Below, piece by piece: positions 44,584 to 45,513 of a stretch of DNA of 64,000 bases (position 1 is its first letter; every line of letters begins with the position of its first letter). This stretch comes from Methanohalophilus sp. RSK (GTDB lineage Archaea > Halobacteriota > Methanosarcinia > Methanosarcinales > Methanosarcinaceae). The stretch covers positions 1 to 64,000 of the forward strand of contig NZ_RDSK01000016.1 in the NCBI RefSeq assembly GCF_003722075.1, in the 5' to 3' direction. The notes beneath the pieces were generated by a model. It made no database searches. It was not told the DNA's origin and saw only the letters and a list, made by a program, of their open reading frames with translations. The translations under genes were made by a program, and so were the position numbers.

Positions 44584-44783
44584 GGGGCTGTGGCCTAGCC
44601 AGGAATGGCGACGGGCTCCAGCGGATAAATGATGAACAACGGGTCTACTGAGGCTTGCCCGACGGGGTTTGCCAGTGAGGAACCGTTGGAGCACTGATAT
44701 GTGTTCATAAGAACAGTCAAAGCTGCTAAGCGCAGTTGTTCGGAGAGACCCGTCGATCGTGAGTTCGAATCTCACCAGCCCCA
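44584..44783 (+). tRNA. tRNA-Trp (anticodon CCA) with 126-base intron
   Basis: Exons are 44584-44621 and 44748-44783; the acceptor is GGGGCTG / CAGCCCC. The mature anticodon loop is CTCCAGA with stem ACGGG / CCCGT, giving anticodon CCA. The two splice sites fit a bulge-helix-bulge: the helix CTCC / GGAG is flanked by the 3-base bulges AGC and AGA, cut after the second base of each. The intron is at the canonical position 37/38. CCA is not encoded. Confidence 0.95.
44622..44747 (+). ncRNA. tRNA-Trp intron encoding a box C/D methylation guide
   Basis: The intron carries box C ATGATGA (44629-44635), D' CTGA (44648-44651), a C'-like AGTGAGG (44674-44680) and box D CTGA (44694-44697). The D' guide ACGGGTCT pairs with AGACCCGT at the intron/exon 2 junction and, by the fifth-base rule, selects C44749, tRNA position 39. 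The D guide pairs with GCTCCAGCGG at the exon 1/intron junction and selects C44618, position 34. Both targets span splice junctions, so modification must come before splicing. This matches the known Haloferax volcanii tRNA-Trp intron, which guides positions 34 and 39 (Cm34 and Um39 there; C39 here). Confidence 0.9.
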
Positions 44784-44844: not shown

Positions 44845-44911
44845 GTTTCATCTACGGGAAAAAGTCCCGTTGGAGTGTGGCCTTAATGGCTGAACCGTCA
44901 ATGAATGAAAC
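44845..44911 (+). promoter_or_regulatory. Foldable leader before rpl15e
   Basis: A 7-bp helix GTTTCAT / ATGAAAC (44845-44851 and 44905-44911) closes a leader that ends directly before the AAGGTGA ribosome site. Inside are the perfect hairpin ACGGGA-AAAAG-TCCCGT (44854-44870) and a smaller stem GCC / GGC (44880-44890). Opening or closing the outer helix would change access to the ribosome site. Such leaders often let a ribosomal protein repress its own mRNA; that role is inferred. Confidence 0.4.
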
Positions 44912-44922
44912 AAGGTGAAATA

Positions 44923-45513
44923 ATGTCAAAATCATTTTACAGTTATGTGAGAGACGCATGGAAAAGACCTGATGATTCTTATGTAAAGGATCTCAGATGG
45001 GAAAGACTCCAGGAATGGAGACGTGAAGGCTCAGTAACCCGTGTAAAAAGGCCTACCCGTGTAGATCGTGCACGTTCCCTTGGGTATAAGGCAAAACAGG
45101 GAATCACAGTCGTACGTGTAAAGGTACATCGTGGAAGCAGGCGTAATTCCCGTTATATGCGTGGAAGAAGGACCCAGCACATGGGTAAAAATAAGATCAC
45201 AGGAGAAAAGAGTCTCCAGAGAATTGCCGAGGAAAGGGCTTCACGCCGCCATCCTAACATGGAAGTACTCAACTCTTACTGGGTAGGGGAAGATGGAAAG
45301 AATAAATGGTTTGAAGCAATTCTTGTGGATCCATTCCATCCTGCTATTGTTAAAGACAAGGACCTCAACTGGGTGTGTGACAGTTCCAGCCGCGGACGTA
45401 CTTTCCGTGGAAAAACAAGCGCAGGAAGAAAGAGTCGAGGTATGCGCAGTAAAGGAACCGGTACGGAGAAAACCAGGCCGAGTGTCCGGTCCAACAATAA
45501 CCAGAGCAAGTGA
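44923..45513 (+). CDS. rpl15e: Ribosomal protein eL15 (L15e)
   Basis: A 196-residue basic protein that starts [15 protein letters not shown] and contains [19 protein letters not shown], the conserved eL15 segments. ATG 44923 is chosen because eL15 starts here and AAGGTGA precedes it; a frame from 44905 adds six residues. The gene begins the long information-processing cluster, and its stop overlaps the next start. Confidence 0.96.

Follow-up and report, generated by a model that had tools for sequence, protein, structure and literature searches.

A Box C/D Guide within the tRNA-Trp Intron of Methanohalophilus sp. RSK and the Conserved Hairpin in Its Linker

Introduction

Does the intron of a methanogen tRNA-Trp gene guide the modification of its own precursor and, if so, at which positions and at which stage of maturation? 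The question is raised by a tRNA-Trp gene of Methanohalophilus sp. RSK, located in a window of 64,000 nucleotides (the whole stretch of DNA that was analysed; contig NZ_RDSK01000016.1, positions 1 to 64,000). An initial annotation of this DNA had proposed that two guides in the intron match the precursor, by a mechanism known from Haloferax volcanii, where position 39 is U. Methylation of C34 and U39 in the tRNA-Trp of that species is lost upon deletion of the intron (PMC2584109, PMC11408192). The analysis presented here indicates that the Methanohalophilus pre-tRNA-Trp intron is almost certainly a dual box C/D guide RNA directing 2'-O-methylation of C34 and C39. In kind, this guide is already known: it is an ordinary member of a known family, in a textbook archaeal arrangement. 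The part that deserves closer attention is the structured linker between its two halves.

Results and Discussion

Gene, Splice Motif, and Guide Anatomy

The gene was detected by the Rfam tRNA model, whereas ARAGORN as run did not detect the intron-containing tRNA-Trp gene. Removal of 44622-44747 yields a normal tRNA with the anticodon CCA at 34-36, and so the Rfam model and the splicing-out exercise agree on the tRNA-Trp with a 126-base intron that had been annotated at 44584-44783. The splice motif is a canonical bulge-helix-bulge whose central helix has 4 bp and whose two bulges, AG^C and AG^A, have 3 nt each:

44584-44783, forward strand: tRNA-Trp(CCA) gene with intron, exon 1 at 44584-44621 and exon 2 at 44748-44783 (RF00005, 44.3 bits; the mature sequence folds as a tRNA)
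44622-44747, forward strand: intron of 126 nt between positions 37 and 38 (from splicing out and the splice-motif parser)
44616-44622, forward strand: 5' half of the bulge-helix-bulge, helix strand 44616-44619 (paired with 44742-44745) and bulge A44620 G44621^C44622 (from sequence, with the parser)
44742-44748, forward strand: 3' half of the bulge-helix-bulge, helix strand 44742-44745 and bulge A44746 G44747^A44748 (from sequence, with the parser)

The neighbourhood includes proS-like and cobT-like open reading frames upstream (named from their translations). Directly downstream of tRNA-Trp lies an eL15 ribosomal protein leader (RF03144, 44855-44901, 39.5 bits), followed by an open reading frame (44905-45513) whose translation reads as ribosomal protein eL15.

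Within the 37/38 intron, the sR3 model RF01133 matches 44625-44699 with 61.4 bits (threshold 41). Boxes C, D', C', and D are all present, with a spacing of 12 nt from C to D' and from C' to D (about 12 is expected), and the fifth bases upstream of D' and D face tRNA positions 39 and 34, respectively:

44625-44627, forward strand: 5' strand of a short terminal stem (3 pairs with 44698-44700)
44629-44635, forward strand: box C, AUGAUGA (RF01133 alignment)
44639-44646, forward strand: D' guide (8/8 Watson-Crick pairs with 44746-44753)
44648-44651, forward strand: box D', CUGA (RF01133 alignment)
44675-44681, forward strand: box C', GUGAGGA (RF01133 alignment; overlaps the last base of the linker)
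44683-44692, forward strand: D guide (10/10 pairs with 44615-44624, including one G-U pair between U44686 and G44621)
44694-44697, forward strand: box D, CUGA (RF01133 alignment)
44618, forward strand: predicted methylation site C34 of the D guide (fifth-base rule, faces G44689)
44749, forward strand: predicted methylation site C39 of the D' guide (fifth-base rule, faces G44643)

The alignment to RF01133 places the four boxes as the initial annotation had done, box C' being one base off the consensus (GAGGA vs. GAUGA). The two targets that had been assigned, C44749 for the D' guide and C44618 for the D guide, are recovered as well, each opposite the fifth guide base in a completely paired duplex. 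The description of this match as exact was nevertheless too strong, given the single G-U pair in the D duplex, which the same annotation had listed as a G-T pair. This wobble reflects G37: six precursors with A37 pair with the same guide U, and 23 precursors carry a guide C. As an observation, the tRNA-Trp intron guide is confirmed, and the analysis supports its two sites and the Cm34 and Cm39 predicted from them. When the intron interior was shuffled 20,000 times with dinucleotides preserved, the D' match was reached by three shuffles, the D match by none, and both together by none.

The proteins that such a guide would work with are encoded in the same genome. The Nop5 and fibrillarin genes adjoin, two genes belong to the L7Ae family, and one splicing endonuclease gene carries two domain matches.

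Guide-Target Covariation and the State of Position 39

The distribution of this guide was surveyed with a script that sought the anticodon stem, the splice motif, and the T arm. In total, 177 precursors were parsed, of which 156 were distinct; exclusion of one spurious entry (L218) left 155. Haloarchaeal precursors were gathered by an exon 1 pattern, and loci were parsed on both strands. Matches to RF01133 are near-universal in the host family (96/101 genomes) and occur in 243 of the 394 genomes sampled in the phylum. An identical precursor is found in another species of the genus Methanohalophilus, and a 34-mer of the intron also occurs in Methanohalophilus euhalobius and M. profundi. A pattern search of 30 genomes without an RF01133 match, many from family f9, returned coding-like or unconvincing stretches together with L203 (G106), CTCCAGCGGTATGATGA, which looks like a true precursor passed over by the model filters. 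No sampled genome of families f33 and f36, both haloarchaeal, matches the haloarchaeal intron pattern. Contig 107 of G007 holds a second tRNA-Trp precursor (L098) of the short-linker type, with an RF01133 match, in addition to the long-linker precursor of that genome; L098 is perhaps a contamination of that assembly.

Position 39 is C in 136 of the 155 distinct precursors, that is, in every one outside the U39 set, and U in 19, all haloarchaeal; each lineage-wide state is inherited, and so these counts do not represent independent events. The guide follows its target. Base 5 of the D' guide is G in 134 of the 136 precursors with C39, while among those with U39 it is A in 14 and G, as a wobble, in five. 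Similarly, a change from C to A at position 41 comes together with G to U at guide base 7, and C, A, or U at intron base +1 comes with G, U, or A at guide base 9. The D guide retains at least 9 of its 10 pairs in all 155. The survey thus yields a clean record of covariation between guide and target and, judged from the sequences, this is the pattern expected of a working guide. The argument is not circular, because RF01133 spans the intron but leaves out exon 2, and an exon 1 pattern was used to gather the haloarchaeal set.

In this context, it is most improbable that the intron is no more than an intron and that its resemblance to a guide arose by chance or as a side effect of the splice motif: the bases that the guides pair with do also take part in that motif, but the guides lie outside it and follow the changes of their targets, shuffles fail to reproduce them, the RF01133 model matches, and a homologous guide is functional in H. 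volcanii.

The survey also bears on the novelty that had been attached to C39 and Cm39 in place of U39. This claim falls, and Cm39 is discarded as a new modification, since C39 is the majority state and Cm39 already appears in a 2018 review, which gives "Cm34 and Um39 (or Cm39)" for the archaeal tRNA-Trp guide machinery (PMC6313347). The consensus guide of RF01133 itself already carries the G that matches C39. In Pyrococcus furiosus, methylation of C39 has been predicted, yet it went undetected among the tRNAs analysed (PMC7668247).

Some precursors depart from the common arrangement. In L075 (G200) and L196 (G404) the D' guide lies one base farther from the D' box, so that the fifth-base rule would point to A38, or the site would be lost. 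In L103 and L104 (genus g9) the D' guide is mismatched opposite C40 and beside D', with the D guide intact; to judge by these mismatches, the C39 site may be decaying in the two. With the D' guide shifted or mismatched in these few relatives, methylation of C39 may be dispensable.

Order of Methylation and Splicing

Both duplexes cross a splice junction, and the initial annotation had concluded from this that the guide works on the unspliced precursor. This stands for the D duplex at C34, which drops from 10 to 7 pairs on the spliced tRNA; as it uses three intron bases, methylation of C34 should precede splicing. It does not stand for the D' duplex at C39, which has the same 8 pairs on either RNA. 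The intron ends in AG, the same two bases as A36-G37, and because of this identity a D' guide that crosses the junction is not tied to unspliced RNA. With the C39 duplex equally good on the spliced tRNA, the sequence does not fix the timing of this modification. The argument from junction crossing to action before splicing is therefore valid for position 34 and invalid for position 39 in this lineage. In four distinct precursors whose intron ends in AT (L013, L068, L108, and L146), the D' guide pairs completely with the spliced tRNA but has a mismatch on the precursor. The opposite is seen in haloarchaea, where the D' guide favours the precursor over the spliced tRNA. The order of steps reported for Haloferax cannot simply be transferred to the Methanohalophilus lineage.

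We propose that the intron guide, together with L7Ae, Nop5, and fibrillarin, would methylate C34 of tRNA-Trp through its D guide and C39 through its D' guide. Its action would probably be in trans, exerted by the guide of another precursor or of an excised, circularised intron. The splicing endonuclease would cut the intron out at the bulge-helix-bulge, with the C34 step coming before this cut. The sequences show the anatomy, the pairing, the covariation, the conservation, and the presence of the protein genes; for the methylation itself, the trans action, the order of steps, and the circle, we draw on published studies of Haloferax and Pyrococcus. A circular tRNA-Trp intron has been described in H. 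salinarum and in all archaea reanalysed (PMC12558985). In H. volcanii, the tRNA-Trp intron is dispensable.

A Conserved Hairpin between D' and C'

The 24 nt between the two halves of the guide, on which the initial annotation is silent, form a hairpin (-13.1 kcal/mol, z -2.7):

44652-44675, forward strand: D'-C' linker, a hairpin of 44652-44654 with 44671-44673 and 44657-44660 with 44665-44668, capped by a GACG tetraloop at 44661-44664 (from the fold, covariation, and K-turn register)

In 30 representative linkers, 91.6% of the cells pair, compared with 66% in shuffles, the covariation score is 0.693 against 0.241 for shuffled and 0.08-0.21 for slid controls, and all nine pairs of the stem show two-sided changes. 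The pair that closes the GACG loop varies (C-G, U-A, G-C, or A-U), and the tetraloop itself is present at the tip in 56 of the 57 distinct long-linker precursors with C39. The exception, L151, has the loop CUGAUCA despite its C39 exon. A search of the same genome for other GACG-capped C/D RNAs matched only the tRNA-Trp intron.

In haloarchaea, whose intron pattern was matched in 345/394 genomes, the linker is a hairpin too, with the loop CUGAUCA and a varying closing pair in all but 2 of the approximately 150 haloarchaeal matches listed. The two deviant loops among them, both from one genus, read CUGGCCC. The stretch UGAUCA is perfectly palindromic, and a palindrome, GGCC, is retained in the variant. 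With families labelled by tool assignment, about eleven of them have the GACG hairpin; the CUGAUCA hairpin is found in the haloarchaeal families and in L151. Linkers in other lineages are mostly 0-12 nt long. Linker hairpins with one of the two loops and a covarying closing pair include those of L061, L069, L077, L151, L165, and L174. For Halobacteria, PMC2584109 mentions merely longer linkers. The linker hairpin, missing from the Rfam model, has lineage-specific, near-invariant loops that are self-complementary or of a type associated with RNA dimers.

What might this element do? We hold with moderate confidence that the hairpin supplies stem I of a complete internal K-turn and would improve L7Ae binding, its loop being held by a protein or by a tertiary RNA contact and not by dimerisation. 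In 80 of the 86 long-linker precursors, the stem lies directly next to D' and ends exactly 3 bases short of the GA of C', which corresponds to a full K-turn register. The archaeal C'/D' motif is otherwise described as a K-loop without stem I (PMC8162545), and a typical K-loop of this kind, with its short closing loop, is not what we find here: the linker has a covarying stem of the 8-bp class, followed by a 3-nt bulge before the GA of C'. The fixed sequence of the loop, which has no known partner, is left unexplained by a K-turn alone.

A second possibility, tentative and on balance unlikely, is that two guide molecules are joined through a putative kissing contact between their loops, GACG with GACG or, in haloarchaea, UGAUCA with UGAUCA, leading to mutual methylation in trans or to a di-RNP. 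Two unrelated loops that occupy the same place in homologous RNAs and that could both in principle self-pair suggest such an arrangement. The constancy of GACG while stem and closing pair change is consistent with it, as are the haloarchaeal palindrome, its retention as GGCC in the CUGGCCC variant, and the CUGAUCA that L151 keeps despite C39 in its exon. The tetraloop on a paired stem, one part of the GACG kissing arrangement, is present here, and GACG tetraloops make loop-loop contacts that stabilise retroviral RNA dimers (PMC516450, PMC5874298). In addition, trans action and dimeric C/D RNPs are already known (PMC7994747). However, the reading is post hoc, GACG is not self-complementary and would kiss through two G-C pairs only, and the guide also occurs, with no loop of this kind, in lineages whose linkers span 0-12 nt. 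A linker acting as a dedicated dimerisation element, based on GACG in Methanosarcinaceae and relatives and on the palindromic CUGAUCA in haloarchaea, and pairing introns or precursors, strikes us as doubtful, and a protein or tertiary contact at the loop as more likely. The dimer would extend, and not replace, the explanation of the intron as a guide. If true, it would provide an RNA-encoded basis for trans action and di-RNP assembly; the linker loops offer a concrete and cheap test of how an intron-borne guide acts in trans.

A role of the loop as a third antisense element, in which GACG would pair with C41-C44, or CUGAU with A38-G42, on the 3' side of the anticodon stem, is disfavoured and highly improbable. 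Such complementarity is present in the window and in the majority of relatives, but CGUC at 41-44 is as common without a GACG loop (56/80 precursors with C39), and in L151 the retained CUGAUCA no longer matches the C39 exon; loop and exon do not track.

Comparison with Known Systems

The closest known system is the pre-tRNA-Trp guide of Haloferax volcanii (Cm34/Um39), which shares the gene, the 37/38 intron, boxes C, D', C', and D, the two targets, and a long D'-C' linker. In contrast to Haloferax, where U39 faces a guide A, the present precursor has C39 and a guide G; its linker loop is GACG instead of the haloarchaeal CUGAUCA, its boxes are nearer to the consensus, and its D' duplex fits the spliced tRNA as well. 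The sR50/tRNA-Trp intron of Pyrococcus is alike by description, being an intronic C/D guide for its own pre-tRNA-Trp (PMC7994747). The GACG hairpins of gammaretroviruses share a stem capped by a conserved GACG, but belong to an unrelated RNA; loop contacts aid the RNA dimer there and are hypothetical here. Finally, the intron guide matches Rfam RF01133 (sR3) across the whole model, whose consensus has a C39-type guide, CGGGUCU, and the guide CCGUUGGAGC. That model has no base pairs and treats a 20-nt linker as an insert, whereas in the lineage examined here the linker is a conserved hairpin.
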